A program made the translations under genes and the position numbers. Source: Cellulomonas sp. IC4_254 (GTDB lineage Bacteria; Actinomycetota; Actinomycetes; Actinomycetales; Cellulomonadaceae). Taken from it: DNA of 51,619 nucleotides. The notes beneath the pieces were generated by a model, which saw only the letters and a program-made list of their open reading frames with translations, did no database searches and was not told the origin of the DNA. The stretch is taken from assembly GCF_011603975.1 (NCBI RefSeq), contig NZ_JAANNB010000004.1, positions 1 to 51,619 on the forward strand, written 5' to 3'. Every line of letters begins with the position of its first letter. The first letter of the stretch is position 1. Below are positions 14,997 through 33,811 of this stretch, piece by piece.

Positions 14997-15724
14997 AGCC
15001 GGCTCCAGGTGTCGAGGGAGATCCGCCGCAGCACCGTGGTCGGGCCGGCGGGCGCCGACGCGTCCCCCGACGCGACCACGACCGTCACCTCGACCGCGTC
15101 GATCGCCGCCGCCTCGGCCGGGGTCAGCGCGCGGTCGTCGCCGTCCGCCGGCAGGGCCGCGCCGCCGCGGGCGACGTAGCGGAACACGGGGGCCTGCACG
15201 TCCCGGGCGATCACCAGGTCCTCGTGCAGCGCTGGGCACGCCGTCGGCGGGCAGTCGTAGCTCCAGGCGGTCGTCGTCGACGTCGGGTCGGGGCGCTGGG
15301 TGATCCGCCGCAGCACGCCGTCGTCGCCCAGGCGCACGGTCACGCGCGTGGGACCGGTGGCCTCCCCGGTGTCGCTGCTCGGGTTGTCGATGTTCGAGTA
15401 GAAGACCAGCTCGGTCCCGCTCGCCTCGAGCACCGCAGCCTCGCCCGCCATCGCCTGGGAGAGCGTGCCGGGGGTCACCGCCTGGCCCAGGCTGCGTGAC
15501 AACCACCGCATGGCGGACAGGGCCTGGTCGACCTGCCCCTGCCGGGCGAGGTTGTGCGCGTTCCCCTGGGTCAGCCCGATGGTGAGCGCGGCGACGAGGG
15601 CGAACACCACCGAGCCGATCATCATCACGACGACCAGCTCCGACAGGGTCATCCCGGTGTCGTCGCCCGTCCGGGCCCGGGTGGCGCGAGGGCGGCGCGC
15701 CGCCGGGGCCGGTCGGGCGGTCAC
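14993..15724 (-). CDS. PilW-like minor prepilin
   Basis: The GTG at 15724 overlaps the previous stop by three bases and gives 243 residues. A long basic leader (about 30 residues) ends in the class III prepilin motif DTG/MTLSELVVVMM, where the +5 glutamate is present, followed by a hydrophobic helix and an amphipathic helix (LARQGQVDQALSAMRWL). The rest is a beta-rich domain with a CPPTACPA cysteine pair. Position between the PilV-like and PilX-like genes matches minor-pilin clusters that initiate pilus assembly. Confidence 0.8.
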   Translation of the reverse strand: MTARPAPAARRPRATRARTGDDTGMTLSELVVVMMIGSVVFALVAALTIGLTQGNAHNLARQGQVDQALSAMRWLSRSLGQAVTPGTLSQAMAGEAAVLEASGTELVFYSNIDNPSSDTGEATGPTRVTVRLGDDGVLRRITQRPDPTSTTTAWSYDCPPTACPALHEDLVIARDVQAPVFRYVARGGAALPADGDDRALTPAEAAAIDAVEVTVVVASGDASAPAGPTTVLRRISLDTWSRL

Positions 15725-16860
15725 GGGCCCGCCTCCGGCGTCGGGCCGGTGCTGCCGGCGGCCTCCAGGTGCAGGGTGGTCGTGCCGCCGGCGGAGAGCA
15801 TGACGGTGGCGTACTCGGAGGTCGGGTCCACCTCCTCCGGCGGGGAGGGGTGCACCCCCCACCAGCCGGGCCACAGCGTCGCAGTGAACCGCGTCCCCTC
15901 CGGGCCGGCGACCTCGTCCGAGTCGGGCTCCAACGCCGTCAGCAGGCCGTCCGGGCGCTGCAGCGTGATCCGGCTGTCCGCGTCGCCGCCCGCCAGGTGC
16001 ACCACCAGCGTGCCCGCGCGGGCGTAGACGAACGACGTCCGGGAGAGCTCGGACGACCGCACGCCGAACACGGCCTGGACCGGCTCGGGGTCGTTCGCCT
16101 GATCGAGGTGGACCGCCGCACCCGGCGACCTGAGGCTGACGTCGTACCGGGTGCCGACCTCGTCGGCCGGCACCGCCAGCACCGCGCAGCCCGACGAGTC
16201 GGTGGTCGCGGTGGCGACCACCGCGCCCGCGGCGGTGACCGCCCGGGCGACGACACCCGGAACGGGCGCGTGACGGTCGTCGCCGACCGCGACCGCGATC
16301 AGCCCGAGGTCGGCCCGGGGCGCGAGCGACTTGTGCGGGGCGAACAGCTGGCGCAGGACGTGCGGCCGGGCCGTGCCCATGCCCTCCCAGGTGACCGTGA
16401 CCTCGACCTCGGTGGCGAGCTTGGTGGCGTAGGTGCTGCCGCCCTCGCAGGCGGAGGTGCTGCCCAGGACGCGCGCGCGGGCCGCCCGCTCGACCGTGTA
16501 CCGCATGCCGTCGACCCGGTACCCATCCGGGTCACCGGGGTCGCGGCCCTCGGTGACCGGGTGCGCGTTCGTCACGACGCCCTCGGCCACCAGCGCCTGC
16601 GCGGCCACCGACGAGGCCGCGAGCCGCTCCCGGACGAGGTCGACCTCGCGCGCCGCGAGGTGCGCGGCCACCACGCGCGACCGGTTGGTCACCGTCGTGG
16701 ACTGGCCCTGGAGGAGCGCGGCGGTGCAGACGGCGGCCATGACACCCAGGAGCACCGCGGCGACGACGACCTCGATCATCGTCATGCCGGCGTCGCGGCG
16801 CTCGGACCGGTCGACGGTGCGGTCTCCCGCCGCGAGGGTCGCTCGGACGTGACGGCGCAC
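15721..16860 (-). CDS. PilV-like minor prepilin with a C-terminal Ig/CNA-B-like region
   Basis: The GTG at 16860 is preferred because a strong GAGAGGAG site lies eight bases upstream; an in-frame ATG at 16902 lacks one. The 379-residue product has a basic leader ending DAG/MTMIEVVVAAVLLGVMAA (prepilin cleavage site with +5 Glu). After about 175 residues of pilin domain comes a beta-rich segment (VAVGDDRHAPVPGVVARAV ... TDSSGCAVLAVP) resembling carboxypeptidase-regulatory or CNA-B-type Ig folds, then another beta-rich end. Such fusions suit a tip or surface-exposed adhesive pilin; that role is inferred. Confidence 0.8.
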   Translation of the reverse strand: MRRHVRATLAAGDRTVDRSERRDAGMTMIEVVVAAVLLGVMAAVCTAALLQGQSTTVTNRSRVVAAHLAAREVDLVRERLAASSVAAQALVAEGVVTNAHPVTEGRDPGDPDGYRVDGMRYTVERAARARVLGSTSACEGGSTYATKLATEVEVTVTWEGMGTARPHVLRQLFAPHKSLAPRADLGLIAVAVGDDRHAPVPGVVARAVTAAGAVVATATTDSSGCAVLAVPADEVGTRYDVSLRSPGAAVHLDQANDPEPVQAVFGVRSSELSRTSFVYARAGTLVVHLAGGDADSRITLQRPDGLLTALEPDSDEVAGPEGTRFTATLWPGWWGVHPSPPEEVDPTSEYATVMLSAGGTTTLHLEAAGSTGPTPEAGP

Positions 16861-16916
16861 AGGTCGCGCTCCTCTCGGCTGGGGGTGCTGTGTCGGTGGC
16901 ATGGGCGGGGCGACGA

Positions 16917-17483
16917 TCAGGGCGCGGTGTCGTCGCACCGGCCGCCGGTGAGCCCGCCGCGCGGCGTGTACATCCAGTCGCCCACCCGGCCGTCCGGGTG
17001 GCTGACGCCCAGGCAGTAGTTGATGGCCCACGTGTCGTCCCGGCCCAGGGAGCCGTCGTGCGTCGAGATCGACTGGTACAGGTCCCAGGCGCCGTGCTCG
17101 TCCCCCTGCAGCGTGACCCCGTCGGAGACGGGGCCCAGGTCCAGCGGGAGGTCCGGGAGAGAGATCCCCGCCGTGCTCGCGCCGCCGTGGAGGTCCCCGA
17201 GCACGTAGCGCTGGCCGGTCGTGCCCGGGACCTCCTCCACCGTGAGCTGGAGCCAGTTGACGTGGTGGAACCGCGACCCCGACTGGAAGAAGGTGTCGAG
17301 CTCCATCGCCAGCCGCCGCAGGTCCGCCTTGGCGGCGGCGTCGTGCGCCGCGGCGCGGTGGTTGAGGAACAGCGGGACCGCGATCCCGGCCAGGATCGCG
17401 ATGACCACGATGACGACGAGCAGCTCGACGAGGGTGAAGCCGTCGTCGCGGGACGACGCCGTGAGGGCCGAGGGGGTGGGCAC
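16917..17483 (-). CDS. Second type IV pilin, paralogue of PilA
   Basis: A 188-residue prepilin with leader MPTPSALTASSRDDG cut before FTLVELLVVIVVIAIL, +5 Glu present, and helix ending in AVPLFLNHR as in the neighbouring PilA. The GTG start is set by CTAGGAGAACC just upstream. The C-terminus (GDWMYTPRGGLTGGRCDD) parallels PilA's end (GQWQYTANGGLGEGDCS), and both keep an internal cysteine before it (NYC / NWC), suggesting the same disulfide-bonded loop. It is therefore a duplicated, diverged pilin, either a minor component or an alternative major pilin. Confidence 0.88.
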   Translation of the reverse strand: MPTPSALTASSRDDGFTLVELLVVIVVIAILAGIAVPLFLNHRAAAHDAAAKADLRRLAMELDTFFQSGSRFHHVNWLQLTVEEVPGTTGQRYVLGDLHGGASTAGISLPDLPLDLGPVSDGVTLQGDEHGAWDLYQSISTHDGSLGRDDTWAINYCLGVSHPDGRVGDWMYTPRGGLTGGRCDDTAP

Positions 17484-17568
17484 GCTGCGGTTCTCCTAGG
17501 TCGGGTGGCCCCCGTGGCCCCCATCCCCCGGCCCGCACCCGTATCCGTCCCTCGATACGGTGGGCCAG

Positions 17569-17603
17569 CCGGGTGGGGCCGCACGCATCGCGGCCCCACC
17601 CGG
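17569..17603 (-). terminator. Hairpin between pilA and the second pilin gene
   Basis: Perfect 14-base arms (17569-17582 and 17590-17603) with a 7-base loop lie just after the pilA stop. No T-run follows, so partial termination or mRNA-end protection giving more pilA than downstream transcript is likely. Confidence 0.65.
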
Positions 17604-17618
17604 GTCGGTCCCCCTGCG

Positions 17619-18107
17619 TCAGCTGCAGTCGCCCTCGCCGAGGCCGCCGTTGGCGGTGTACTGCCACTGGCCGATCTGGCCACCCTCGTGCTCGACGGCC
17701 ACGCACCAGTTCTCACGGCCGATGTCGGTGAGCGTGCTGTCCGGGTCCGCCGCGAGCGTGGTGGTGGTGACCGCGACCCCGTCGGACACACCACCGAGGT
17801 TCTGCGTCTGTCGGTCGCCCGCCGGGCCCCACGCCAGCTCGTAGGCCTCGTTGGCTCCGGTGCCGGTGGTGGTGATGTTCACCGTCCCGAGGTCCGTGGC
17901 GTCCACGAACAGCGTCGCGACCTCCTTGCCGATCTTGGAGACGTCGGCCTTGGCCGCCGTGTCGGCCGCCTTGGCCCGCTGGTTGAGGAACAGCGGGATC
18001 GCGATCGCGGCCAGGATGCCGATGATGATGATGATGACGACGAGGAGCTCGACGAGGGAGAAGCCCTCGTCCTTGCGTTCCTTCGCCTCGGTGATGCGGC
18101 GCAGCAT
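17619..18107 (-). CDS. pilA: Major type IV pilin PilA
   Basis: A 162-residue prepilin. The leader MLRRITEAKERKDEG is followed by FSLVELLVVIIIIIGILAAI, with glutamate at +5, then the conserved helix end AIPLFLNQRAKAADTAAKADV. The C-terminal half is a beta-sheet domain with a cysteine pair (NWC ... GDCS) that probably staples the last loop. ATG at 18107 is preceded by CAAGGAGCACCACC. It follows pilC and is flanked on both sides by hairpins, a common layout for a highly expressed pilin embedded in an operon. Confidence 0.93.
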   Translation of the reverse strand: MLRRITEAKERKDEGFSLVELLVVIIIIIGILAAIAIPLFLNQRAKAADTAAKADVSKIGKEVATLFVDATDLGTVNITTTGTGANEAYELAWGPAGDRQTQNLGGVSDGVAVTTTTLAADPDSTLTDIGRENWCVAVEHEGGQIGQWQYTANGGLGEGDCS

Positions 18108-18217: not shown

Positions 18218-19435
18218 TCACTGCACGGCGTCCGCGATCGAGAAGATGGGCATGTAGAGGGCGATGAGCATCCCGCCGACGATGACGCCGATCACGACGA
18301 TGAGCAGCGGCTCCAGCACGCTGGTCAGCGAGGCGGTCGCGGTCTCGACCTCCTGGTCGTAGAACCCGGACACCTTGGCGAGCATCGTGTCCAGCGCGCC
18401 GGAGTCCTCGCCGACGGCCACCATCTGCCGGAGCATCGGCGGGAAGATGTCCTCGCCCTCGAGCGCCTCGCCCAGTGCGGTGCCGCCCTGGACGCCCTCG
18501 CGGACGCGGCCCACGGCGTCCTCGACGACGACGTTGCCGCTGGTGGCGCCCACCGTGGCGAGGGCGGGCACGACCGGGACACCCACCCGGGACATGGTCG
18601 CGAGGTTGCCGCTGAACCGGGACAGCGCGATCTTGCTCATGAGCGAGCCGAAGATCGGCACCTTGAGCTTGACCGGGTCGACCCGCCGCCGGACGGCCTC
18701 GTCGTTGCGGTGCTTGCGCCACCACCAGGTGCCGCCGACGATCGCGAGCACCAGCGGCCCGATCGCGACCTTCATGATGTCGGCGAGCCCGATGAGCATC
18801 TGGGTGGGCAGCGGGAGCTCCTGTCCGAGCCCCTCGAACTGCTCCTGGAAGATCGGGACGACGAAGAGCAGCATCGCCGCGACCGCGCCGACCGCGAGGC
18901 ACACCACGACGACCGGGTAGGTCATCGCCCCGACGACGGCCCGTTTGAGCGCGATCTCCTTCTCCAGGGTCGTCGCGACGGCGAGCAGCACCTCGTCGAG
19001 GAACCCGCCGTCCTCCCCCGCCCGGACCATCGCCAGGGTGACCGGGCTGAACACCCGCGGGTGCTTGGCCAGCGCGAACGACAGCGCCTCGCCCTCGGAG
19101 ACGTCCTGCTCCACGGCCTTGAGGACGTCGCCCAGCCCGCTGCCCTCGGTCTGCGACGACAGCACGGAGAGCGCGCGCGGCAGCGCCAGGCCGGCGTTCA
19201 CCATCGTGGCGAGCTGCCGGACGGCGACCGCGACCTCCTTCGGCTTGGCACCCTTCCTGCCGAAGCTGATCTCCCGGTTCAGCCCGGAGGACTCGACCGG
19301 CTCGATCGTGGTCGCGTTGAGCCCGAGCTCCCGCAGCCGGGCGGCCACGGTGTCCTGGTCCGGCGCCTCGATCCGGCCGGAGACGGGCTTGCCGTTCTTC
19401 CCGAGGACCGTGTACTCGAAGGTCTGCATGCTCAC
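18218..19435 (-). CDS. pilC: PilC, polytopic platform protein of the type IV pilus
   Basis: A 405-residue member of the GspF/PilC family. It has an N-terminal cytoplasmic domain (FEYTVLGKNGKPVSGRIEA), then two tandem T2SSF domains with membrane helices near residues 170-220 and at the C-terminus (VVIGVIVGGMLIALYMPIF). The signature PRVFSPVTLAMVRAGEDGG-type motif occurs in the first repeat and a shorter copy (MLRQMVAVGEDSGAL) in the second. It starts seven bases after the pilT stop; an alternative ATG lies two codons in. PilC is turned by PilB and PilT to add or remove pilins. Confidence 0.95.
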   Translation of the reverse strand: MSMQTFEYTVLGKNGKPVSGRIEAPDQDTVAARLRELGLNATTIEPVESSGLNREISFGRKGAKPKEVAVAVRQLATMVNAGLALPRALSVLSSQTEGSGLGDVLKAVEQDVSEGEALSFALAKHPRVFSPVTLAMVRAGEDGGFLDEVLLAVATTLEKEIALKRAVVGAMTYPVVVVCLAVGAVAAMLLFVVPIFQEQFEGLGQELPLPTQMLIGLADIMKVAIGPLVLAIVGGTWWWRKHRNDEAVRRRVDPVKLKVPIFGSLMSKIALSRFSGNLATMSRVGVPVVPALATVGATSGNVVVEDAVGRVREGVQGGTALGEALEGEDIFPPMLRQMVAVGEDSGALDTMLAKVSGFYDQEVETATASLTSVLEPLLIVVIGVIVGGMLIALYMPIFSIADAVQ

Positions 19436-19442
19436 GATGCGC

Positions 19443-20570
19443 TCACCCCGGCCCGTGCCCGGAGCGGAGCGCCGACTCGCCCTGGATCATGCGGGCGGTG
19501 CGGCCGCACATCTGCGCGTACTGGTCGACCTGGCGGGCCTTGGCCAGCCCCTCCTCGAACGAGATCTCACCGCGGCGCACGAGGTCCGCGAGGCTCTGGT
19601 CGAGGGTGTGCATGCCCTGGTCGGCGCCCGAGTGCAGGACCGAGTAGAGCTGGTGCAGCCGCCCGTCCCGGACGAGGGCGCGAACGGGCGGCGTCGCCAC
19701 CAGCACCTCCGTCGCGACCGCCCGGCCGGGTCCGTCCTGCCGCTTGCACAGCGTCTGCGACACCACGCCCTGCAGGGCCGCGCCGAGCTGGGTGCGGATC
19801 TGGGTCTGCTGCTCGGCGGGGAACTCGTCGACGATCCGGTGGATGCTCGACGCCGCGTCCTGGGTGTGCAGGGTGCCGAACACGAGGTGCCCGGTCTCGG
19901 CCGCCCGCAGGGCGATGCCCATCGTCTCGGCGTCGCGCATCTCACCGATCACGATGATGTCCGGGTCCTGGCGGAGCGCGCGCACGAGCGCGGCGTAGAA
20001 GGAGTGGGTGCTGGTGCCGACCTCGCGCTGCGTGACGATGCAGCGCCGCGAGGTGTGCAGGAACTCGATCGGGTCCTCGATGAGGATGATGTGGTCGGCC
20101 CGGCTGCTGTTGGCGAGGTCGATGATCGACGCCAGCGTGGTCGACTTGCCGGATCCCGTCGGTCCGGTGACCAGGACCAGCCCGCGCGGCAGGCCGGCGA
20201 ACTGCGCCACGCTCCCGGGCACGCCGAGCTCGTGCAGCGGCTTGATGACGGACGGGATGAGCCGGAACGCCGCGCCGAGGCCGTCGCGCTGGTGGTAGTA
20301 GTTCACGCGGAAGCCGGAGCCGGTGTCGAGGGTGTACGACAGGTCCAGCTCCATGTCCTGCGCGAACCGCTCGCGCTGGTGGTCCTTGAGGATCCGCGGG
20401 AGCGTGACGGCGAGCATCTCGTCCGTCAGGACGGGCCAGCCCGGGACGGGCGTCATGTGGCCGTCGATGCGGTACGCGGGCGGCAGGCCGGCGTGCAGGT
20501 GCACGTCGGACGCCCGCGCGGTCACCGCCTGCCGGAGCAGCTCGTCCAGGTCGAAGGGCTGCGCGCTCAT
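19443..20570 (-). CDS. pilT: PilT retraction ATPase
   Basis: A 375-residue hexameric ATPase that depolymerises the pilus and powers retraction (twitching). The ATG at 20570 overlaps the pilB stop (ATGA). Visible: the N-terminal PAS-like domain with ASDVHLHAG, Walker A GPTGSGKSTT near residue 135, the Asp/His boxes (EDPIEF, VTQREVG), Walker B VIGEMRDAET, and the TLHT motif. Family length is typical. A dedicated PilT implies retractable pili, not just a secretion pseudopilus. Confidence 0.95.
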   Translation of the reverse strand: MSAQPFDLDELLRQAVTARASDVHLHAGLPPAYRIDGHMTPVPGWPVLTDEMLAVTLPRILKDHQRERFAQDMELDLSYTLDTGSGFRVNYYHQRDGLGAAFRLIPSVIKPLHELGVPGSVAQFAGLPRGLVLVTGPTGSGKSTTLASIIDLANSSRADHIILIEDPIEFLHTSRRCIVTQREVGTSTHSFYAALVRALRQDPDIIVIGEMRDAETMGIALRAAETGHLVFGTLHTQDAASSIHRIVDEFPAEQQTQIRTQLGAALQGVVSQTLCKRQDGPGRAVATEVLVATPPVRALVRDGRLHQLYSVLHSGADQGMHTLDQSLADLVRRGEISFEEGLAKARQVDQYAQMCGRTARMIQGESALRSGHGPG

Positions 20571-22243
20571 GCCACCACCCGGAGGATCTCCTCGAGGGAC
20601 GTGCGTCCCGCCGCCACCTTCTGCCAGCCGTCGTCGCGCAGCGTGACCATCCCCTGCTTGAGCGCGGTGCGGCCGATGTCGGTCGCCGGGGCGCCGGCCA
20701 CGGCCTGCTGCTCGATCTCGTCGGTCACGGACATGACCTCGTGCAGCGCGAGGCGGCCGCGGTACCCGGTCCCCGAGCACGCCACGCAGCCGACGGGTCG
20801 CCGCAGCTCGGGCACGGGCTCGCCCTCCAGCCACGGGAACCGCGCGCCGAGGAGCTCCTGCGGGGTGGGCGCGTAGGGCTCCGCGCACCGCTCGCAGAGC
20901 TTGCGCGCGAGCCGCTGGGCGACCACGCAGTCCAGCGCGGAGCCCACGAGGTACGGCTCGATGCCCATCTCGATGAGCCGGGTGACCGCCGACGGGGCGT
21001 CGTTGGTGTGCAGGGTCGACAGCACGAGGTGGCCGGTCAGCGAGGCCTCGATCGCGATCTGCGCGGTCTCGTGGTCGCGGATCTCACCGAGCAGCACGAC
21101 GTCGGGGTCCGAGCGCAGGATGGACCGGAGCGCGCTGGCGAACGTCAGGCCCGCCTTGGCGTTGACCTGGACCTGGTTGATGCCGGGCAGCCGGTACTCG
21201 ACCGGGTCCTCGACGGTGATGACGTTGATCTCCGGCTTGGAGACCGCGTTCAGGGTCGCGTAGAGCGTGGTCGACTTGCCGGAGCCGGTCGGACCGGTGA
21301 CCAGGAGCATGCCGTACGGCTTGGTGTACGCCGCACGGTAGGTCTCGAGGTTGTGGTCGAGGAACGACAGGTCCGTCAGGTCGAGCGAGGCCGTCGAGTT
21401 GTCCAGGATCCGCATGACGATCTTCTCGCCCCACACGGTCGGCAGCGTGGCGACGCGGAGGTCGACCTTCGTGCCCTCGTGCGTGACGGACATCCGGCCG
21501 TCCTGCGGCTTGCGCTTCTCCGCGATGTCGATGTCCGACATGATCTTGACGCGCGAGATGACGCCGGCCTGGATCTGCTTGGGCGAGCGCTGGGTCTCGT
21601 GCAGCACGCCGTCGATCCGGTAGCGCACGCGCAGGTCGTGCTCGGTCGGCTCGATGTGGATGTCCGACGCCCGGTCGGTGATCGCCTGGGTCACCAGCAG
21701 GTCGACGTACCGCACGACCGGGCTGTCCGCGGTCACGGAGTCGCCGACCTGCGAGAGGTCGACCTCCCCGTCGTCGTGGGCCGCCGCGCCGAGGGAGCGG
21801 CCGATGCCCGCGATCTCCGAGTCGGAGCGCAGGTGGCGGTTCATGGCGGAGGTCAGAGAGCTGGGCGTGGCGAGGACGGGCACGACCGGCACGCCCAGCA
21901 GCGCCTTGGCGTCGTCGAGCGCGACCACGTTGCCCGGGTCCGCGGTCGCGAGCAGCACGGCGTCGCCCCGGCGCCCGACGGGGAGGATCGCGTGCCGCCG
22001 GCACAGCTGCTCGGGCAGCAGCTGGACGACCCCGGGGTCGATCGGGTGCTCGTCCAGGTCGAGGAAGTCCAGCCCGGCCTGCTCCGCGAGCGCGGCGAGC
22101 AGCACGGGCTCGCTGACCGCCCGCTCGTCGAGGAGGGCCTGGACCAGCGACCGGCCGCTCTCCTCCCGCCGCGCGAGGGCGCGCTCGAGCGCGGGGCCGT
22201 CCACCAGGCCGCGGGCGACGAGGGCGTCGGCGAGCAGGCTCAT
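20567..22243 (-). CDS. pilB: PilB extension ATPase
   Basis: A 558-residue GspE/PilB ATPase that drives pilus polymerisation. The ATG at 22243 overlaps the upstream gene's stop (ATGA). The N-terminal ~140 residues form a T2SSE_N/MshEN-like domain with two helical LxxALxxxxxVxxxxLxxAL repeats; this domain binds c-di-GMP in some homologues, though the Arg-Leu-Gly signature is not well kept here. The catalytic part has ASDIHIEP, Walker A GPTGSGKSTT near residue 312, EDPVEYRLPGINQVQVN, Walker B VVLLGEIRDHETA, and the zinc-binding tetracysteine CERC...CVAC. Confidence 0.95.
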   Translation of the reverse strand: MSLLADALVARGLVDGPALERALARREESGRSLVQALLDERAVSEPVLLAALAEQAGLDFLDLDEHPIDPGVVQLLPEQLCRRHAILPVGRRGDAVLLATADPGNVVALDDAKALLGVPVVPVLATPSSLTSAMNRHLRSDSEIAGIGRSLGAAAHDDGEVDLSQVGDSVTADSPVVRYVDLLVTQAITDRASDIHIEPTEHDLRVRYRIDGVLHETQRSPKQIQAGVISRVKIMSDIDIAEKRKPQDGRMSVTHEGTKVDLRVATLPTVWGEKIVMRILDNSTASLDLTDLSFLDHNLETYRAAYTKPYGMLLVTGPTGSGKSTTLYATLNAVSKPEINVITVEDPVEYRLPGINQVQVNAKAGLTFASALRSILRSDPDVVLLGEIRDHETAQIAIEASLTGHLVLSTLHTNDAPSAVTRLIEMGIEPYLVGSALDCVVAQRLARKLCERCAEPYAPTPQELLGARFPWLEGEPVPELRRPVGCVACSGTGYRGRLALHEVMSVTDEIEQQAVAGAPATDIGRTALKQGMVTLRDDGWQKVAAGRTSLEEILRVVA

Positions 22244-23649
22244 GACGCGGCCTCGCTCGGCTCGACGGACCCGGCCGGCTCGGCGCCGTCGGTGTCGGTG
22301 CGCAGGGTGGCCACCAGGTCGGTCAGGCGCCACAGCGGACCGACGAGCGCGGCCGCGTCGACGGGGGCCGCCTGCGCGACGCACTGCTCGGCGAGCCGGC
22401 GCAGCGCGGCGATCCGTCCGTGCCCGCGCGCCAGGAGGTCGTCGATCGGCCCGACGTGCGGACCCAGCTGCTGGGTCACGCCGTACCGGGGCACCTGGAG
22501 CCGCCAGGTGCTGAGGAAGGTGCGGAACTGCTCCAGCCGGCCCCGGGTGGCCTCGACCTCGTCCCGGACGGCGGCGAGCTGTCGCGCGCTCCGCTCGCCT
22601 GAGGCCGTGAGGGCGTCGAGGTCCTCCTGCAGCGCCCGGCACAGCGGCACCACGTGCGCGAGGTCGTCGGCGGTCGTGCCGCCGGAGATGACCTCGTCGG
22701 CGAACGCGACGACCACGTCGCTGTGCTGGCGGGCGAGCGCGATCCGGAACCGCTGCTCCATCACGGTCAGGCGGACGGTCGCGAGCGCCTCGGCCAGGCC
22801 CGCCAGGCTGCCGGCCAGCTCGGCGGCCAGCCGGTCCATGGCCGCCGACGTCCGCGCGAGGACGGGCGCGGTCCCGGCGACGTGGCTCGACGCGCGCCCG
22901 GCGGCCGAGGTGGCCGCGCCGAGGTCGTCGGCCGTGATCCTGGCGCCCTCGGACGCGATCTGGAGGTCGTCCACGAGCTCCTTGAGCGCGTCCAGCCGCC
23001 CGAGCGCGTCGGCGAGACCGGCGCTCACGTCGAACGCGGCGGCGAGCACCTCGCCGACGGCGCCGGGCGCCTCCCGGCCCGCGGACGGGGCGGACGCGGC
23101 GACCCGGGAGACGACCTCCGCGGGCAGCGCGGTGAACATGAACTCCTCGTAGCTCGCGTACCCGGCCGTCCCCAGCCGTGCCGCGAGGTCCTCGGCCCCG
23201 GCGGCCGCCGCCCGGGCCGCCGACCCGCCCTCGGCGCGGCACGCGCGCTCGCGCGGCAGCGTCCCGGCGTACAGGCCGAAGGCGGCGTCCCGGAGCGGGG
23301 CGGCCATCGGCGCGCTGCGCACCGACAGGAACCCGTCCCCGAGCGGCGTCACCGTCGCGAAGACGTCGTAGGACGCGCCGTCCTTGGCCAGGTTGCGCAC
23401 GTACGCGGCGAACGGACGACCCGCCAGCAGCGTGTCCCACATCAGCCGGAACGCGCCGCCCGGCATCTCGGGGTGCCGGATGACGTTGTGCGGCGCCCCG
23501 ATCAGGTCCGTCCGGGCGAACCGGGACAGCCGCTCGAACACCGAGTTCGCCGCCGTGATGACGCCCTTGCGGTCCGTCACGGAGAAGAACAGCTCGTCCG
23601 GGGCCACGGTGCGCACGGCACCCGTCGCCGCGACGCGGTCAACCGGCAC
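22240..23649 (-). CDS. Soluble Aer-type PAS-domain protein with a long helical C-terminus
   Basis: A 469-residue protein of unestablished function. Residues ~18-113 are a PAS domain of the Aer (aerotaxis) subtype: TDRKGVITAANSVFERLSRF, then the diagnostic PHNVIRHPEMP, and a final RSAP strand. In Aer this fold holds FAD and senses redox state. The remaining ~350 residues are Ala/Leu/Glu-rich and mostly helical, probably coiled coil, but lack the hairpin-tip consensus of methyl-accepting chemoreceptors, a HAMP domain or membrane segments. The GTG at 23649 overlaps the GTPase gene by 11 bases and its stop overlaps the pilB start. It is thus wedged between the conservon GTPase and the pilus motor, suggesting it passes a redox/energy signal to one or both. 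Confidence 0.8.
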   Translation of the reverse strand: MPVDRVAATGAVRTVAPDELFFSVTDRKGVITAANSVFERLSRFARTDLIGAPHNVIRHPEMPGGAFRLMWDTLLAGRPFAAYVRNLAKDGASYDVFATVTPLGDGFLSVRSAPMAAPLRDAAFGLYAGTLPRERACRAEGGSAARAAAAGAEDLAARLGTAGYASYEEFMFTALPAEVVSRVAASAPSAGREAPGAVGEVLAAAFDVSAGLADALGRLDALKELVDDLQIASEGARITADDLGAATSAAGRASSHVAGTAPVLARTSAAMDRLAAELAGSLAGLAEALATVRLTVMEQRFRIALARQHSDVVVAFADEVISGGTTADDLAHVVPLCRALQEDLDALTASGERSARQLAAVRDEVEATRGRLEQFRTFLSTWRLQVPRYGVTQQLGPHVGPIDDLLARGHGRIAALRRLAEQCVAQAAPVDAAALVGPLWRLTDLVATLRTDTDGAEPAGSVEPSEAAS

Positions 23650-24259
23650 GCCGGATCCGATCCATCGCGTGCCGGACGAGCCGGACCAGCGTCTCCTTCG
23701 TGGCCTCCCGCGACCGGGCGTCGGTGTAGAGCACCGGCACCTCGGCGGGCACCGCGAGCGCCTCGCGGATCTCGTCCAGCTCGTGCCGGGCGACGCCGTC
23801 GAAGCAGTTCACGGCGACCACGAACGGCACGCCGCGCGACTCGAAGTAGCTGATGGCGGAGAAGCACTGGTCGAGGCGGTCGGTGTCGACCAGGACGACG
23901 GCCCCCACGGCCCCGCGGGCGAGGTCGTCCCACATGAACAGGAACCGGTCCTGGCCCGGGGTGCCGAACAGGTACAGCCACAGGGAGCCGGGCAGCGCGA
24001 TGCGCCCGAAGTCCATCGCCACCGTCGTGGACACCTTGTGGGCGCTGCGGCTGCCGGCGTCGTCGACGCCGAGCGAGTGCTCGGTCATCGCGGCCTCGGT
24101 GGACAGGGGCTCGATCTCGGAGATCGAGCCGATGAAGGTGGTCTTGCCGACGGAGAACCCGCCGGCCACCACGACCTTGACGACGACCGGCGCGACGTCG
24201 ACGGCGGCGTGGGTGCCGCCGTGCGCGCGCACGGCCGGGTCAGAGCTCGCCGATTCCAT
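23639..24259 (-). CDS. Conservon-type Ras-like GTPase (CvnD family)
   Basis: A 206-residue small GTPase. G1 P-loop GGFSVGKTT spans residues 33-41, G3 is in the LFGTPGQDRF segment, and a VNCFDG segment sits at the G4 position where NKxD would be usual; this divergence is normal for CvnD/MglA-like proteins. Such GTPases cycle with a roadblock partner and a kinase-like protein encoded alongside. A GGGAG site lies eight bases before the ATG at 24259; it overlaps the DUF742 gene by 20 bases. Position as the last cvn gene, followed by the PAS protein and pilB, makes the pilus motor a plausible target. Confidence 0.9.
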   Translation of the reverse strand: MESASSDPAVRAHGGTHAAVDVAPVVVKVVVAGGFSVGKTTFIGSISEIEPLSTEAAMTEHSLGVDDAGSRSAHKVSTTVAMDFGRIALPGSLWLYLFGTPGQDRFLFMWDDLARGAVGAVVLVDTDRLDQCFSAISYFESRGVPFVVAVNCFDGVARHELDEIREALAVPAEVPVLYTDARSREATKETLVRLVRHAMDRIRRAG

Positions 24260-24605
24260 CGATCACACTCCCGAGGAGAGCCAACGTGCGGTCGCGGTCG
24301 TCGACGTGCGCGCCCCGCGAGCCGCCGGAGGGGCCGAACAGGCGGACCGCGCCGAGCGCGGCCAGGTCGGCCGAGACGACCTGGGCGGTCCCCAGCGGGA
24401 CCCGCAGGGTCGCGGCGACCTCCGCCACGGTCAGGTAGCCGTCACCGAGCAGGTCGAGGATGCGGCGCCCCTCCCGGGACCCGGTCTCGGCGGCGTCCGG
24501 CACCGCCGCCAGCAGGGTGTCGAAGGCGAGGCCCTCGGCCGCCACCCGGCCGCGCGTGATGACGTAGGGGCGGAGCTCGGAGACGCCGCCGTCACCCGGT
24601 CGCAC
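24240..24605 (-). CDS. DUF742 protein of the conservon (CvnC family)
   Basis: A 121-residue protein with the DUF742 pattern: RPYVITRGRVA near the start, a winged-helix-like middle (ILDLLGDGYLTVAEVAATLRVPLGTAQVVSADL), and an end of LLGSVIDGIGEL. GTG at 24605, overlapping the roadblock gene by 14 bases. CvnC proteins accompany CvnA, CvnB and CvnD in actinobacteria; the helix-turn-helix-like core suggests a protein- or DNA-binding role that is not established. Confidence 0.9.
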   Translation of the reverse strand: MRPGDGGVSELRPYVITRGRVAAEGLAFDTLLAAVPDAAETGSREGRRILDLLGDGYLTVAEVAATLRVPLGTAQVVSADLAALGAVRLFGPSGGSRGAHVDDRDRTLALLGSVIDGIGEL

Positions 24606-25089
24606 GGGTCGCTCCGTCCGTCGGCAGGCTCCGGCGCATCTCGGCGACGAGCTGGGGGGTCAGCGCCGACTCCGCGCCCTCGGCGAGCAGCGCCATCTCG
24701 TAGCCCACCGACCCCACGTCGGCCGTCACGTCGGCGGCGAAGGCGAGGATGGACCCGTCGGAGACGGTCATGAGGACCAGGAAGCCGGCGTCGTAGTCGA
24801 TCACCGCCTGGTTGACCGACTGCCCGCCGATCATCCGGGCCGCGCCGCGTGCCAGGCCGGAGATGCCGGAGACCACCGCGGCGAGCTGGTCGCCCGTGGT
24901 GCGGTCCAGGCCGGACGAGACCGCCATGAGCAGGCCGTCGCTCGAGACGAGGATGCCCAGCCGCACGCCGGCGACGCCGCGGACGGTGCTGTCGAGCAGC
25001 CAGCCGAACGACGTCGGCGGCCGGGTTGGAGCGGACACGGGATCTCCCTCGGGTCGGGGGCTGGTGACGGGCGCAGTCGTGGGGCTCAT
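24592..25089 (-). CDS. Roadblock/LC7 protein of the conservon (CvnB family)
   Basis: A Roadblock/LC7 protein (165 residues from ATG 25089). The domain runs from FGWLLDSTVRGVAGVRLGILVSSDGLL to the end, as in MglB and CvnB, which act as partners or GAP-like regulators of the small GTPase. The ATG at 25089 overlaps the kinase stop (ATGA). A GTG at 25038 with a better GAGGGAG site five bases upstream would give a 148-residue protein and may be the true start; both keep the whole domain. Confidence 0.9.
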   Translation of the reverse strand: MSPTTAPVTSPRPEGDPVSAPTRPPTSFGWLLDSTVRGVAGVRLGILVSSDGLLMAVSSGLDRTTGDQLAAVVSGISGLARGAARMIGGQSVNQAVIDYDAGFLVLMTVSDGSILAFAADVTADVGSVGYEMALLAEGAESALTPQLVAEMRRSLPTDGATRATG

Positions 25090-26978
25090 CCGCGGCCCGT
25101 CCGGCCGCGGCCCGTGGCGGAGCGGAAGGCCGAGAACCTGCTGCGCACGGCGGTGGCGTCGCGGTCGGTCGGTCCGCGGTTCGCGGTGAGCGGTTCGGCC
25201 ACCACGGTCGGCGTGCGCCGCTCGAGGGTGGCCGAGCCCGCGGGTTGCGCGGCCGTCGGCCGGTAGGAGGAGAGCCGCCCGAGCTCGGCCAGCACCTCGT
25301 CCCGCAGGCCGGGCTCGGCGTACGTCTCCGAGGCCGCCGGGGCGGGCACGAACCAGTCGTCGCCGGCCGCCGCGGGTGAGGGCACGGCGGGAGAGGCGAA
25401 CCGCCCCGGCGCGGACGTGGGGTCCTCCGCGGGCGCCGGCGCGAAGCTCTCGACCGGCGCGAAGCCCTCGGCGGGCGCGAAACCCTCCGCAGGCGCGAAA
25501 CCCTCCGCAGGCGCCACACCCTCCGCGGGCGCGAAACCCTCCGCGGGCGCGAAGCCCTCGACCGGTGCGGGGACGGGTAGGAGGCGCTCCGTCGGCGGGC
25601 CGGCGGGCTCGGGCAGGAATTCCCCACCGTCGTCGGTGGTCGACCCGACACCCGAGACCGGGCCGGCGGCATGCGCCGGACCGAAGCCCGGCGCCGGCGC
25701 GGCGTCCGTCCCGGTGCCGCCGTCGAGCGGCGGCCAGGCGGGCGCGGCGTCGCCGAACCGTCCCGGCAGCACGGCGGGCGCGGCGGGCGGCTCGGCCGGG
25801 GTCGCGACGGGCCAGGCCGGCGCGTCGCCGTGGCCCGCAGCGGGGTCGGGGCCGTCGAGGACGGCGCCCGGCGCGGCGCCTCGGGACCGCCGCGGCAGCG
25901 AGCCGGCGTCCGCGGCGGCCGACGGGGTGCTCTCGGCCTCGGGCACCGACGGCGCCAGGGGCAGCGGGATCGAGTCCGTCACGACGGGCGCGTCGGGTCG
26001 CGCCGACCCGGTGGACGCGGTGTCCGCCGCGGAGCTCGCGGCCAGCAGCCGGGCCGGGACCCGGACGACCGCGGTGGTGCCCGGCGCGCCCGGGACCAGG
26101 TCGACCTCGACGCCCAGCCGCTGCGCCAGGCGCCCGACGACCACGAGCCCGATCCGTCCACCCGGCGGGATCGCCGAGGAGGTGAGCCGGCGACGCGCCT
26201 CGTCGAGCGTCTCGGGGTCCATCCCGAGCCCCGTGTCGGTGATCGAGACGACGGCGTCCTGCTCGTCGAGGTCGACCCGCACGTCGACCGCCGAGCCGGG
26301 CTCCGAGAACCGGGTGGCGTTCTCCAGGAGCTCCGCCAGGAGGTGTGCGACCGGGACCACCGCCGACGCCTGCAGCATCGGGTCCGCCCCGGCCGCCACC
26401 GTCACCCGGTCGTAGGCCTCGATCTGCGCGCAGGCCGTGCGCGCCGTGTCGGAGAGCGACAGCGGCTCGCGCGCGCGGCGGCCGGTCACGCCGCGGGACA
26501 GGACGATCACGGACTCGGCGTTCCGCCGCAGCCGCACGGTGAGGTTGTCCAGCTGGAACAGCACCCCGAGCACCTCGGGGTCCTCCTCCCGGCGCTCCAG
26601 CTCGTCCAGCAGCTCCAGCTGGCGGCCGAGCAGGCCGACCTCGCGCATCGCGCCGATCTCGGCCAGCACCGGGGCCGCGCCGGCCCCGTCCCCGGGGGCG
26701 TCCGCGACCGGCGTGGGCGCGGTCGTCGGGGTCGGCTCGTCGACGGGGGCCGGCTCGTCCGCGACGCCCGCCTGCCCGCGGGTGCCGGCACCGGACCGCC
26801 CGGTCCCCGCCGCGGGGACCTCGGCGTCGCGCCGGTCCTCGACCCCGCGCAGCCGGCGTGCCAGCCGGGCCACCTGCGCGGCCAGGAGGAGCGCCAGGAC
26901 GAGACCCAGGACGGCCACCGCCACCGCCACCACGGGCAGGTGCGGCGACGCCGCGAGGTCGTCGAGCATCTCGATCAT
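25086..26978 (-). CDS. Conservon sensor kinase-like protein (CvnA family) with a hexapeptide-repeat tail
   Basis: From ATG 26978 (AGGAGGG twelve bases upstream) the product has 630 residues: one membrane helix (about 15-34), a Pro/Ala-rich linker, a dimerisation segment (LFQLDNLTVRLRRNAES, 140-156), and a HATPase_c domain with N-box ELLENATRF (N220) and DTGLGM (248-253). The large N-terminal nitrate/nitrite-type sensor domain seen in many CvnA proteins is absent. In my knowledge of the family the segment reads LDHLATR with the phosphoacceptor His; here that position is N145, so autophosphorylation is doubtful. Residues ~370-630 are a Pro/Ala/Glu-rich disordered tail with tandem AP-AEG-F repeats (471-512). 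It is the first gene of the long minus-strand run leading into the pilus genes. Confidence 0.88.
   Translation of the reverse strand: MIEMLDDLAASPHLPVVAVAVAVLGLVLALLLAAQVARLARRLRGVEDRRDAEVPAAGTGRSGAGTRGQAGVADEPAPVDEPTPTTAPTPVADAPGDGAGAAPVLAEIGAMREVGLLGRQLELLDELERREEDPEVLGVLFQLDNLTVRLRRNAESVIVLSRGVTGRRAREPLSLSDTARTACAQIEAYDRVTVAAGADPMLQASAVVPVAHLLAELLENATRFSEPGSAVDVRVDLDEQDAVVSITDTGLGMDPETLDEARRRLTSSAIPPGGRIGLVVVGRLAQRLGVEVDLVPGAPGTTAVVRVPARLLAASSAADTASTGSARPDAPVVTDSIPLPLAPSVPEAESTPSAAADAGSLPRRSRGAAPGAVLDGPDPAAGHGDAPAWPVATPAEPPAAPAVLPGRFGDAAPAWPPLDGGTGTDAAPAPGFGPAHAAGPVSGVGSTTDDGGEFLPEPAGPPTERLLPVPAPVEGFAPAEGFAPAEGVAPAEGFAPAEGFAPAEGFAPVESFAPAPAEDPTSAPGRFASPAVPSPAAAGDDWFVPAPAASETYAEPGLRDEVLAELGRLSSYRPTAAQPAGSATLERRTPTVVAEPLTANRGPTDRDATAVRSRFSAFRSATGRGRTGRG
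25441..25566. repeat. Seven tandem 18-base repeats inside the CvnA-like gene
   Basis: Seven consecutive 18-base units beginning gcgaa(g/a)c(c/t)ctc (one variant begins gccacaccctc); two adjacent units at 25477-25512 are identical. On the minus strand they encode six-residue units of the form A-E-G-F-A-P. All copies keep frame. Confidence 0.9.
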
Positions 26979-30415: not shown

Positions 30416-32152
30416 TCACACCCCGAGCGTCACCCGCGCCTCCGGGTCCAGCAGCCCCGCCACGGCTGCGCGCCCCGCGGCCGGGTCCGCCGCGGCCAGC
30501 GCGGCGTCCGCCATCGCCCGGCACGCCTCGAGGGTGTGCCGCCGCAGCGCGAACCGCACCGCGGGCAGCGCGGCCGGCGACATCGACAGGCTGGTGACCC
30601 CGAGCCCGGTCAGCACCAGGGCCATCAGCGGGTCGGACGCGGACTCGCCGCACACGCCCACCGGCCGGTCCTTCGCCGCCCCGGCCCGTGCGGTCGCGGC
30701 GACGAGCTCGAGGACGGCGGGCTGCCACGCGTCGAGCAGGTCCACGAGCTCGCCGCGCAGCCGGTCGGCGGCCATCGTGTACTGCGCGAGGTCGTTGGTG
30801 CCGAGCGAGACGAAGTCGACCTCGTCGAGCACCGCGGCGGCGCGGAGCGCGGCGGCGGGCACCTCGACCATGACCCCGGCGGTGCGCAGGCCGGCCGCGT
30901 GCACGGCCTCGGCGAACGCCCGGGACTCGGCCGGGGTGGCGATCATCGGGGCCATCACCCAGGGCTGGGTGCCGGTCTCCTCGCCCGCCCGGGCCAGCGC
31001 GGTGAGCTGGTCGGTCAGCAGCGCGGGCGCGGACCGGACCAGGCGGTAGCCGCGGACGCCGAGCGCGGGGTTCTCCTCGGCGTGCAGGTTCGCGAACGCG
31101 AGCGGCTTGTCGGCGCCCGCGTCGAGGGTCCGGACGACGACCTTGCGGTCCGGGCCGAGCGCGCGCAGCACCCGCGCGTACGCGGTGGCCTGCTCGTCGA
31201 CGGTCGGCGCCTGCTGCCGGCCGAGGAACAGCACCTCGGTGCGGAACAGCCCGACGCCCTCGACGGCGGCGCCCACGAGCTTCTCGGCGTCCTCGGCGGT
31301 GCCGATGTTGGCGAGCAGCTGCACCCGGTGCCCGTCCGCGGTGCCGCCCGGGTCGGTGTCGGACTCCAGGGCGCGCTCGGCGGCGGCACGCGACTCCAGG
31401 GCGGTGCGGTCGTCGGCGGACGGCTCGACCAGGACGGTGCCCGCGGCGGCGTCGACGCCCACCACGACCCCGTCCGCGAGCGCCGAGGCGCCGGTGGTGC
31501 GCACGACGCACGGGATGCCGTTCTGCCCGGCGATGATCGCGGTGTGCCCGGTGGGACCGCCCTCCTCGGTGACGAGCGCCAGCACGCGCTCCAGGTCGAG
31601 GGCGGCGGTGTCGGCGGGCGCGAGGTCGGTCGCGACGACCACCGACGGCTCGCGGAGCTCGGGGACGCCCGGCGCGGGCAGCCCGGCGAGCCGGGAGACG
31701 ACCCGGTCGCGCACGCTGCGCAGGTCGGTGACCCGCTCGGCCAGGTAGCCGCCGGCCTGCTCGAACATCGCGGCGAACGTGCCGACCACGGCGTCGATCG
31801 CCGCGACCGGCGGCTCGCCGCCCCGGACGCGGCCGAGCACCTGGTCCCGCAGCGCCGGGTCGTCGGCCATCATCGCCGTCGCGCCCAGCACCTCGGCCAC
31901 CGTGCCGGTCGCGCGGCCGGCCTGGTCGCGCAGCCCGTCCCCCACGGCGGCGAACGCGGCGGTCACGGCGTCGGGCAGCTCGTCGGCCGGCACCGGGGCG
32001 CCGTCGCGGAGCACCGGGGCGTCGCCCGGGACGGCCGGCGCGGGCCGCACCCGCACCACCGGCCCCACGGCGACGCGCCGGCCGACGCCCACCCCCTGCA
32101 GCACGGTCCCGGCGGCGGGCGGTGCGGTCGTCTCGGTTCGCGTGTCGGTCAT
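30416..32152 (-). CDS. ptsI: PTS enzyme I (phosphoenolpyruvate-protein phosphotransferase)
   Basis: First phosphocarrier of the sugar PTS: takes phosphate from PEP and passes it to HPr. 578 residues, usual length. The phospho-histidine segment reads GGPTGHTAIIAGQNGIPCVV near residue 200 (the preceding Ser of the consensus TSHTAI is Gly here, the His is kept). The PEP-binding domain includes FRTEVLFL, GTNDLAQYTMAADR and the C-terminal CGESASDPLMALVLTGLGVTSLSMSP with the active-site Cys. It is the last gene of the fructose PTS cluster, 96 bases after the EIIBC gene across two hairpins. No HPr gene is found in the window. Confidence 0.95.
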   Translation of the reverse strand: MTDTRTETTAPPAAGTVLQGVGVGRRVAVGPVVRVRPAPAVPGDAPVLRDGAPVPADELPDAVTAAFAAVGDGLRDQAGRATGTVAEVLGATAMMADDPALRDQVLGRVRGGEPPVAAIDAVVGTFAAMFEQAGGYLAERVTDLRSVRDRVVSRLAGLPAPGVPELREPSVVVATDLAPADTAALDLERVLALVTEEGGPTGHTAIIAGQNGIPCVVRTTGASALADGVVVGVDAAAGTVLVEPSADDRTALESRAAAERALESDTDPGGTADGHRVQLLANIGTAEDAEKLVGAAVEGVGLFRTEVLFLGRQQAPTVDEQATAYARVLRALGPDRKVVVRTLDAGADKPLAFANLHAEENPALGVRGYRLVRSAPALLTDQLTALARAGEETGTQPWVMAPMIATPAESRAFAEAVHAAGLRTAGVMVEVPAAALRAAAVLDEVDFVSLGTNDLAQYTMAADRLRGELVDLLDAWQPAVLELVAATARAGAAKDRPVGVCGESASDPLMALVLTGLGVTSLSMSPAALPAVRFALRRHTLEACRAMADAALAAADPAAGRAAVAGLLDPEARVTLGV

Positions 32153-32188
32153 GGCCTGAGCGTCTCCCCGTCGAGATCGGTCTGGGAA

Positions 32189-32238
32189 GGGGCGGAGGTC
32201 CCGCCCCTGCGTCCCCGGGCCGCGACGGGCCCGGGGAC
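32189..32238 (-). terminator. Two hairpins between the EIIBC gene and ptsI
   Basis: gtccccgggcc (32211-32221) pairs with ggcccggggac (32228-32238), and ggggcgg (32189-32195) with ccgcccc (32201-32207). Their place suggests attenuation of the operon before ptsI, which may also have its own promoter. Confidence 0.55.
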
Positions 32239-32248
32239 CAGGATGCCG

Positions 32249-33811
32249 TCAGGCGACGGCGGGCTGGGCGGCGGCCGGCGTGGTCGCCGCGGCGGCGGCG
32301 TCCGCCTCCCGCTCGGCCTCGACCAGCGGGCTCGGTCGCAGGCCCTTGAGCACGACCACGACGCCCGCGGTGATCACCGTGCCGACCGCGACCGCCAGCA
32401 GGAACCCCAGCGGGTTCGAGATCAGCGGGAGCACCCAGATGCCGCCGTGCGGCGCCCGCAGGCCCGAGCCGACCGCCATCGTGATCGCCCCGGTGACGCT
32501 GGAGCCGACCATCGACGACACGATGACCCGCCAGGGGTCCGCCGCGGCGAACGGGATGGCGCCCTCCGAGATGAACGACAGGCCGAGCAGCCACGCGGCC
32601 TTGCCGTTCTCCCGCTCGGCGTGCGTGAACAGGCCCTTGCGGACGACGGTGGCCAGCGCCATCGCCAGCGGCGCGACCATGCCCGCGGCCATCACGGCCG
32701 CCATGATCCGGTACTGCACGGCGTCGCCGGTCAGCCCCTCGGTCGCCAGCCCGGTCACCGCGAAGGTGTAGGCGACCTTGTTGATCGGCCCGCCGAGGTC
32801 GAAGCCCATCATCGCGCCGAGCAGCGCGCCCATGAGCACGAGGTTGGAGCCGGACAGGCCGTTGAGCCAGTTCGTCAGCCCGTCCATGACGTTCGCGATC
32901 GGCCGGCCGATGACCACGAACATGAGGAAGCCGGTGATGAGCGAGGACAGCAGCGGCGTCACCACGACCGGCATCACGCCGCGCACGCCCTTGGGCACCC
33001 GCCACCGGCTGATCCACAGGGCGAGGAAGCCGCCGACGAACCCGGTGACCAGGCCGCCGAGGAAGCCCGCGCCGATCACCACGGAGATCGCGCCGCCGAC
33101 GAAGCCGGGCACCAGGCCGGGCCGGTCGGCGATGGCGTACGCGATGAAGCCGGACAGCACCGCCACGAGGAACCCGAAGGCGGCCGCGCCGGTCTGGTAC
33201 AGCAGCACCGCCCAGTCCTGCCCGGAGGTGATGCTGAACGACGTGATGAGGTCCTGCACGGGGACGGCGGTCACCGCGACCGGCCCCTCGTTCCCGGGCC
33301 AGGCCGCCTGGGCGATCATGAACCCGAGGGCGATGAGGATGCCGCCCGCGGCGACGAACGGGATCATGTACGACACGCCCGTCATCAGCCACTGCCGGAT
33401 CCGGGTGCCGACGCCCGCGTTCGGGTCGACCTTGACGGCGGGTCGCGGGGCCCCGGCGGCCGTGGGGGTGGCGCCGGCCGCGGCGGCGTCGGCCGCGGGC
33501 ACGCCCGCCTCGACCGCCGCGACGGCCTGGGCGAGCACGCCGTTCGGGTCGTGCACCGCCTTCTTGACGCCGACGTCCACGAAGGGCTTGCCGGCGAACC
33601 GGTCCTTGGCCTGGACCTCGAGGTCGGCGGCGTAGATCACGCCGTCCGCCGCCGCGATGATCGCGGGGTCGAGCGGCGTGGAGCCGGCCGCACCCTGCGT
33701 CTCGACGTGCACCTCGTGGCCGGCGGCCTTGCCTGCCTGCTCGAGCGCCTCGGCGGCCATGTACGTGTGGGCGATCCCCGTGGGGCACGAGGACACGGCG
33801 ACGAACTTCAT
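32249..33811 (-). CDS. fruA: PTS fructose transporter EIIBC component
   Basis: Membrane permease that imports and phosphorylates fructose to fructose 1-phosphate. 520 residues: an EIIB domain at 1-100 with the phosphorylated Cys9 in SSCPTGIAHTYMAAEAL, an Ala/Pro linker, then the EIIC domain with about nine to ten membrane spans, including MTGVSYMIPFVAAGGILIALGF. The ATG at 33811 overlaps the EIIA stop (ATGA). Placement with 1-phosphofructokinase and a DeoR repressor makes fructose the expected sugar. Confidence 0.93.
   Translation of the reverse strand: MKFVAVSSCPTGIAHTYMAAEALEQAGKAAGHEVHVETQGAAGSTPLDPAIIAAADGVIYAADLEVQAKDRFAGKPFVDVGVKKAVHDPNGVLAQAVAAVEAGVPAADAAAAGATPTAAGAPRPAVKVDPNAGVGTRIRQWLMTGVSYMIPFVAAGGILIALGFMIAQAAWPGNEGPVAVTAVPVQDLITSFSITSGQDWAVLLYQTGAAAFGFLVAVLSGFIAYAIADRPGLVPGFVGGAISVVIGAGFLGGLVTGFVGGFLALWISRWRVPKGVRGVMPVVVTPLLSSLITGFLMFVVIGRPIANVMDGLTNWLNGLSGSNLVLMGALLGAMMGFDLGGPINKVAYTFAVTGLATEGLTGDAVQYRIMAAVMAAGMVAPLAMALATVVRKGLFTHAERENGKAAWLLGLSFISEGAIPFAAADPWRVIVSSMVGSSVTGAITMAVGSGLRAPHGGIWVLPLISNPLGFLLAVAVGTVITAGVVVVLKGLRPSPLVEAEREADAAAAATTPAAAQPAVA

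Follow-up and report, generated by a model that had tools for sequence, protein, structure and literature searches.

The targets of conservons are mostly unknown. In the described systems Cvn8, Cvn9, and Mfp, four consecutive genes encode CvnA, which has a HATPase domain and a C-terminal LPxR motif given as a conservon trait (PMC4316618), the Roadblock protein CvnB, the DUF742 protein CvnC, and CvnD, a GTPase of the conservon group. In Mfp, CvnB acts as a GTPase-activating protein (GAP) and CvnC as a guanine nucleotide exchange factor (GEF); according to the same source, H183 of CvnA8 is required for autophosphorylation, and CvnA proteins without a sensory domain go together with accessory proteins (PMC13343842). 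In Myxococcus, the GTPase MglA and SgmX bring the pilus extension ATPase PilB to the pole (PMC11580455). Here we report on a window of 51,619 nucleotides, the whole stretch of DNA analyzed, from Cellulomonas sp. IC4_254 (contig NZ_JAANNB010000004.1, positions 1 to 51,619 of the forward strand), in which a conservon is built into a type IV pilus operon. This association is real, conserved, and rare. In the open PubMed Central literature we found no published description of a conservon within a pilus operon, in agreement with an earlier note on this DNA, and none of small-GTPase control of pili in monoderm bacteria.

A conservon joined to pilB and pilT

In the window, cvnA, cvnB, cvnC, cvnD, a gene for a PAS protein, pilB, and pilT form an unbroken run on the minus strand, with successive junction overlaps of 4, 14, 20, 11, 4, and 4 bases. 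The coordinates confirm exactly the order and the overlaps (ATGA, 14, 20, 11, ATGA, and ATGA) given in the earlier note. The genes of this run are as follows.

25086-26978, minus strand: cvnA; HATPase_c (Pfam, 7e-13); ATG start with AGGAGG upstream; transmembrane helix at residues 16-34, Asn145 in the dimerization and histidine phosphotransfer domain (DHp), N and G boxes of HATPase_c kept, LPRR (the C-terminal LPxR motif) at 361
24592-25089, minus strand: cvnB; Roadblock/LC7 protein, MglB-like (Pfam Robl_LC7, 1.3e-17)
24240-24605, minus strand: cvnC; DUF742 (Pfam, 3.8e-16)
23639-24259, minus strand: cvnD; small Ras-like GTPase of the conservon group; ATP_bind_1, PF03029 (Pfam, 1.3e-27)
22240-23649, minus strand: PAS gene; GTG start; PAS_3 (Pfam, 1.7e-4, below its cutoff)
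20567-22243, minus strand: pilB, extension ATPase; T2SSE and MshEN (Pfam)
19443-20570, minus strand: pilT, retraction ATPase; T2SSE, the name PilT being based on gene order and size

The Roadblock match of CvnB and the DUF742 match of CvnC both exceed the curated cutoffs. CvnD exceeds its cutoff via PF03029, Ras (PF00071) being below its own, and contains both the G1 motif GGFSVGKT and the G3 motif GTPGQ. The module thus shares with Cvn8, Cvn9, and Mfp the four-gene order and the type of each of the four proteins, but differs in its location inside a type IV pilus operon, in a CvnA that has no sensory domain and carries Asn in place of the DHp His, and in the PAS accessory gene. The latter occupies the position directly after cvnD that is taken by the genes for CvnE (P450) and CvnF (GAF) where CvnA has no extracytoplasmic sensor; in contrast to these proteins, its product combines an Aer-type PAS domain with a bundle of long helices, and pilB follows. 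As in the MglA/MglB-SgmX-PilB system of Myxococcus, a Ras-like GTPase and a Roadblock partner are tied to the extension ATPase, here as judged from the genes alone, whereas the GTPase is of the conservon group, kinase-like and DUF742 partners are present, and all are encoded in a single operon with pilB.

Elsewhere, the same genome has a second pilus locus of the ordinary type IV kind that lacks a conservon (contig C332, locus L211) and whose PilB is 72% identical, and a second conservon on contig C46.

Occurrence of the arrangement

A search of genome contigs for the PAS family provided 79 loci from the best 80 of 125 matches, and PilB adjoins the PAS gene in 13 of them. These comprise 10 loci in nine metagenome-assembled genomes (MAGs) of Bifidobacteriaceae (L072-L080 and L129), which we take from their isolate codes to be derived from termite guts, as well as Cellulomonas sp. 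ACRRI, Cellulosimicrobium cellulans DE0111, and C. pakistanensis. Contig ends truncate L078 and C. cellulans DE0111 in cvnD and L079 and L080 in pilB. PilB was absent, as judged by tblastn, from the other 66 PAS loci, several of which are short contigs.

We also determined the frequency of the arrangement starting from PilB, which would miss a conservon separated from pilB by a long gap. The family has 74 PilB places in 71 of 150 genomes; all were inspected, each with about 1 kb or more upstream, and a conservon was found at four (the window, G256, G205, and G276:C16). The order has 99 PilB places in 79 of 196 genomes. All 54 places of the close class were inspected, and 51 had at least 1.3 kb upstream (L235, L237, and L250 were set aside). 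Among these 51, cvnD-PAS-pilB or more was present at 8 (the window and seven genomes of genus g29), a CvnA-like and a PAS-like gene only at 2 (g57), and neither the conservon nor this pair at 41. No conservon was found at the 11 inspected places of the distant class (45 in total).

Gene order and overlaps are maintained across families at about 60 to 78% identity of PilB and 45 to 55% identity of the CvnA core. With start codons picked mechanically for this comparison, the 4-base overlap of the PAS gene and pilB was seen again in all four PAS-bearing loci measured (G205, C. pakistanensis, Cellulomonas sp. ACRRI, and L033). An accident of one strain was rejected, as the order recurs in Cellulomonas, its relatives, and Bifidobacteriaceae MAGs. 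The claim of the earlier note that a conservon is built into a pilus operon therefore holds in several lineages; the co-occurrence of cvnA-cvnD with pilB to which it pointed recurs across families but is rare. Separately, the conservon-linked PilB proteins of Cellulomonas sp. ACRRI (L082) and Cellulosimicrobium cellulans DE0111 (L083) are nearly identical, which suggests a recent transfer or a mislabeled strain.

Pilus-linked CvnA lacks the DHp histidine

Only two columns of the CvnA alignment are His in the majority of free CvnA; one lies within the DHp and the other at the N box of the ATPase. In the DHp column, all 10 pilus-linked CvnA carry Asn, whereas 13 of 14 free CvnA carry His; the residue is Arg in g57 (L069), and L329 and L363 are absent from the alignment because they gave no core match. 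His is also found in 49 of 50 further class loci (30 best and 20 weaker, picked among the matches listed, with G001 also one of the 14). The free CvnA without this His are a Nocardia plasmid copy and G021 (L423 and L446), the latter an ordinary conservon that also has Asn in the column and no pil match within 8 kb. With two free copies lacking it, the DHp His is a usual rather than a definitional conservon trait.

Textbook kinases carry the phospho-acceptor His in the first DHp helix. A model of a CvnA fragment, which was moderate (predicted local distance difference test [pLDDT] of 77, eight sequences), places Asn145 (fragment residue 48) in the second helix, so that its equivalence to the phospho-acceptor rests on the work on CvnA8 and not on the model; on that basis, the DHp column would correspond to H183 of CvnA8. 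Linked CvnA retain the N and G boxes and, by hydropathy, have a single transmembrane helix near the N terminus and no NIT-like outer part and no space for an outer sensor, some showing weak later peaks. In the CvnA of the window, no sensory or HAMP domain was found. Since a recognizable sensory domain and the DHp histidine are both missing, CvnA is unlikely to act as an ordinary sensor kinase, and the linked CvnA are probably non-phosphorylating relatives of kinases. The linked CvnA from G256 and from C. pakistanensis showed no LPxR motif.

The PAS protein

Residues 15 to 111 match the PAS domain of Escherichia coli Aer (8dik; E = 6.5e-18). In the model of the whole protein (pLDDT of 93.8), an Aer-type PAS domain (residues 9 to 131), which aligns to 8dik with a Z score of 17.6 and a root mean square deviation of 1.2 over 122 residues, is accompanied by a bundle of long helices (residues 196 to 454). 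The remainder of the protein is helical, with three helices of about 60 residues each, and the bundle gave generic four-helix matches only, the best (Z score, 18.6) to a designed protein. In 61 sequences, N35, H54, R58, and W71 are invariant and H59 and P60 nearly so, and the protein presumably binds flavin adenine dinucleotide.

Searches with E values of up to 1 revealed no GAF or P450 match and no match to methyl-accepting chemotaxis protein (MCP) or HAMP domains; a function as chemoreceptor was rejected for want of an MCP match. Six homologues away from pilus loci (L146, L097, L084, L143, L138, and L112) have dissimilar surroundings; visual inspection of the N-terminal 50 residues of each neighbor revealed no chemotaxis gene. 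The term "Aer-like sensor" used in the earlier note is thus appropriate for the PAS domain but not for the rest of the protein, where the Aer receptor differs from the helix bundle found here.

Two further observations concern Bifidobacteriaceae MAGs. A second PAS paralogue (L033:2679-4112 and L071:5856-7508) lies near genes that by eye resemble rpsL and rpoC, and in one MAG the linked PAS gene is split across two frames (L062/L129).

Clades and natural variants

Trees were built on chosen sequences. One PilB clade (support 95/99) unites the 11 conservon-linked PilB and 2 of g57, while 21 ordinary PilB, including those of the same genomes, fall outside; a single clade of the 11 linked PilB without g57 was rejected (approximately unbiased [AU] test, p 0.006). 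The 10 linked CvnA form one clade (99/98) against 21 free CvnA and g57, so the change to Asn took place a single time and then persisted. These trees show the conservon as co-inherited with one PilB clade, via CvnA. A single origin of the linked CvnD was rejected (AU p 0.025) in a tree that omits the near-copies L062, L072, L073, and L079 and the partial L184. The CvnD of C. pakistanensis and ACRRI nest within ordinary Cellulomonadaceae CvnD (99/99), and these two look exchanged for an ordinary conservon GTPase.

Two variants differ from the full module. (i) In G256, there is no intervening PAS gene; cvnD itself overlaps pilB by 4 bases, and the PAS match elsewhere is only short. The rule that a CvnA without sensory domain implies an accessory protein was rejected as a complete explanation because sensor and PAS protein are both missing from G256. 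(ii) In g57, the gene order is RCC1-like, CvnA-like, PAS-like, and pilB; all but the first of these genes are joined by 4-base overlaps, and no CvnD match was found in the two genomes searched. Retention of CvnA-like, PAS-like, and PilB proteins without CvnB-D points to a partnership of CvnA and PAS. The g57 CvnA-like protein is strongly diverged, with no Pfam match in L329 and with broken N and G boxes in L069. The diverged genes (L069:2091-4996 and L329:1716-5068) are still in overlap with the PAS-like gene and pilB, and the RCC1-like repeat protein of this pilus cluster is encoded at L329:5044-6876. Each of the seven Bifidobacteriaceae g29 genomes has exactly one CvnD match, which is the pilus-linked one. 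Since the g29 and g57 genomes are MAGs, not all of those of g29 being complete, the absences in both are soft.

GTPase-pilB pairing in distant Actinomycetota

In the phylum, PilB is present in 247 of 396 genomes. An MglA-type GTPase gene precedes pilB, immediately or at a distance of up to about 3 kb, at 22 of 48 places read other than our own (13 of 29 in a first set and 9 of 19 in a second), the places having been taken from the best-scoring ones and not at random. Roadblock and PATAN-like matches accompany the GTPase at all 10 positive loci of the first set whose upstream sequence exceeds 4 kb; of the nine positive loci in the second set, PATAN-like matches were seen in all and Roadblock matches in five. 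At L315, Pfam confirmed Robl_LC7, DUF4388, and the GTPase, tblastn identified PilB, and 4-base overlaps join DUF4388 to the GTPase and the GTPase to PilB. Sets of Roadblock, DUF4388/PATAN, and GTPase genes before pilB were noted at L315:1707-4354, L317, L319-L324, L226, and others. PATAN genes have been reported near some MglA genes, in a passage that does not mention pilB (PMC4316618).

These loci resemble the window in that a GTPase gene precedes pilB directly or at a short distance and differ from it in that PATAN replaces CvnA, CvnC, and PAS and in the GTPase clade: the CvnD of the window groups with conservon CvnD, which a 100/100 branch separates from the distant pilB-linked GTPases in a tree without Group 1 MglA. 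As the latter form a separate clade, the pairing of a GTPase with pilB seems to have arisen at least twice in Actinomycetota.

Other features of the window

A 7-base gap separates pilT from pilC, and the pilus cluster continues as follows.

18218-19435, minus strand: pilC, platform protein; T2SSF (Pfam)
17619-18107, minus strand: prepilin; N_methyl, weak, below cutoff; 110-base gap after pilC
15721-16800 (approximate), minus strand: prepilin-like gene; N_methyl at residues 303-326 of the open reading frame (ORF) 15721-17706; start unsettled
14993-15655 (start approximate), minus strand: prepilin-like gene; N_methyl at residues 74-94 of ORF 14993-15874, below cutoff
11876-12940, minus strand: pilM; PilM_2 (Pfam, 1.7e-25)

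The cluster has a content like that of type IVa pili, with PilB, PilT, PilC, PilM, and prepilins together (Pfam), and no PilN/PilO or prepilin peptidase was identified in it. An RCC1-like repeat protein is encoded inside the cluster (8986-10515, minus strand); because its N-terminal stretch resembles a signal peptide by eye, it may be a protein of the surface or tip and not an exchange factor for a GTPase. Outside the cluster, sugar uptake genes of a phosphotransferase system were recognized by eye at 30416-34263 on the minus strand (enzyme I-like, EIIBC-like, and EIIA-like, with a 4-base overlap between the last two), and ARAGORN predicted a tRNA-Gly (ccc) at 48042-48133 that, with 92 bases, is long for tRNA-Gly.

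Discussion

The best explanation of these data, to which we give about even chances, is that a second type IV pilus system has taken over the conservon as its dedicated control module, in which the GTPase would control PilB. The inference of the earlier note, a GTPase switch for the extension and retraction of pili, is thus supported in part. In the mechanism that we propose, the PAS protein would sense a redox or energy signal through flavin and, by contact instead of phosphorylation, would reshape CvnA, which is anchored in the membrane. The reshaped CvnA would set the balance of GAP-like CvnB and GEF-like CvnC on CvnD, CvnD-GTP would license PilB for engagement with the base of the pilus, in the way that MglA-GTP acts via SgmX in Myxococcus, and pilus extension would be confined to the appropriate redox state or place. 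We infer flavin sensing, contact signaling, the GAP and GEF roles derived from Mfp, and PilB as the target, the last because of the analogy with MglA-SgmX. A fuller account, which we consider possible rather than probable, is that a whole conservon was captured and turned to contact signaling: a flavin-bearing PAS protein would read redox, a kinase-dead but ATP-binding CvnA would relay, and CvnD-GTP would license PilB, with the GTPase-pilB pairing having arisen at least twice in the phylum.

Several points weigh against control of PilB by the GTPase. The arrangement is rare at the PilB places of both the family and the close class of the order. Since two linked CvnD look exchanged, tight coevolution of CvnD and PilB is argued against, and since G256 is without PAS and g57 without GTPase, neither appears to be indispensable. 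The CvnA of G256 is likewise without a sensory domain although the PAS protein is missing, and the Asn in 10 loci represents one inherited event and not ten. The linked g29 PAS proteins have Asn at position H59, where Aer has His, and the capacity to bind flavin may therefore not be shared by all members. The accessory genes cvnE and cvnF are reported only from large-genome clades (PMC13343842). Finally, given the MshEN domain of PilB, cyclic di-GMP could be the main control.

The conservon and PAS protein might instead control the amount of pilus operon product at the level of transcription, as Cvn8 does, and not the motor. Characterized Streptomyces conservons alter gene expression (PMC13343842), and CvnC gave weak helix-turn-helix matches below the cutoff (Pfam HTH_20, E = 0.027; PF0610-like_N, 0.052), a further point against control of the motor. 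No gene of the module, however, passes a DNA-binding cutoff, MglA systems are described as targeting protein complexes and not gene expression (PMC13343842), and a second, separate GTPase clade is also found at pilB; we thus regard transcriptional control as doubtful. In another scenario, CvnA and PAS would form the working regulator, an ATP- or redox-gated membrane scaffold at the pilus base, with CvnB-D as dispensable modulators. The 4-base overlaps kept in g57 in the two genomes without a CvnD match, and the single clades of CvnA and of PilB next to an exchanged CvnD, would fit this scenario, which we nevertheless judge unlikely: the strongly diverged CvnA of g57 may be decaying, and G256 retained CvnA-D but lost PAS.

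That the conservon merely came to lie before pilB as a passenger, with no role in piliation, would agree with the rarity of the association, the exchangeability of CvnD, and an ordinary family pilus that has no conservon. It appears improbable in view of the order and overlaps kept across families at the above divergence, the disappearance of both the sensory domain and the His from the linked clade, and the retention of this conservon, and no other, by the g29 genomes. The module could also set where pili form, as MglA does in Thermus and Myxococcus, and not whether they extend; deletions of MglA/MglB in T. thermophilus shift the localization of pili and not their formation (PMC12024867), and for the present locus we consider such a polarity function highly improbable.

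Under control of PilB by the conservon GTPase, the operon itself encodes the likely target of its conservon, the motor that extends the pilus. If true, MglA-SgmX-PilB would have a counterpart in a Gram-positive bacterium, and a conservon target would be readable from an operon. A kinase relative without phospho-acceptor would suggest that conservons can signal without phosphate, and the three natural variants, namely, the full module, that without PAS, and that without GTPase partners, represent ready-made comparisons.

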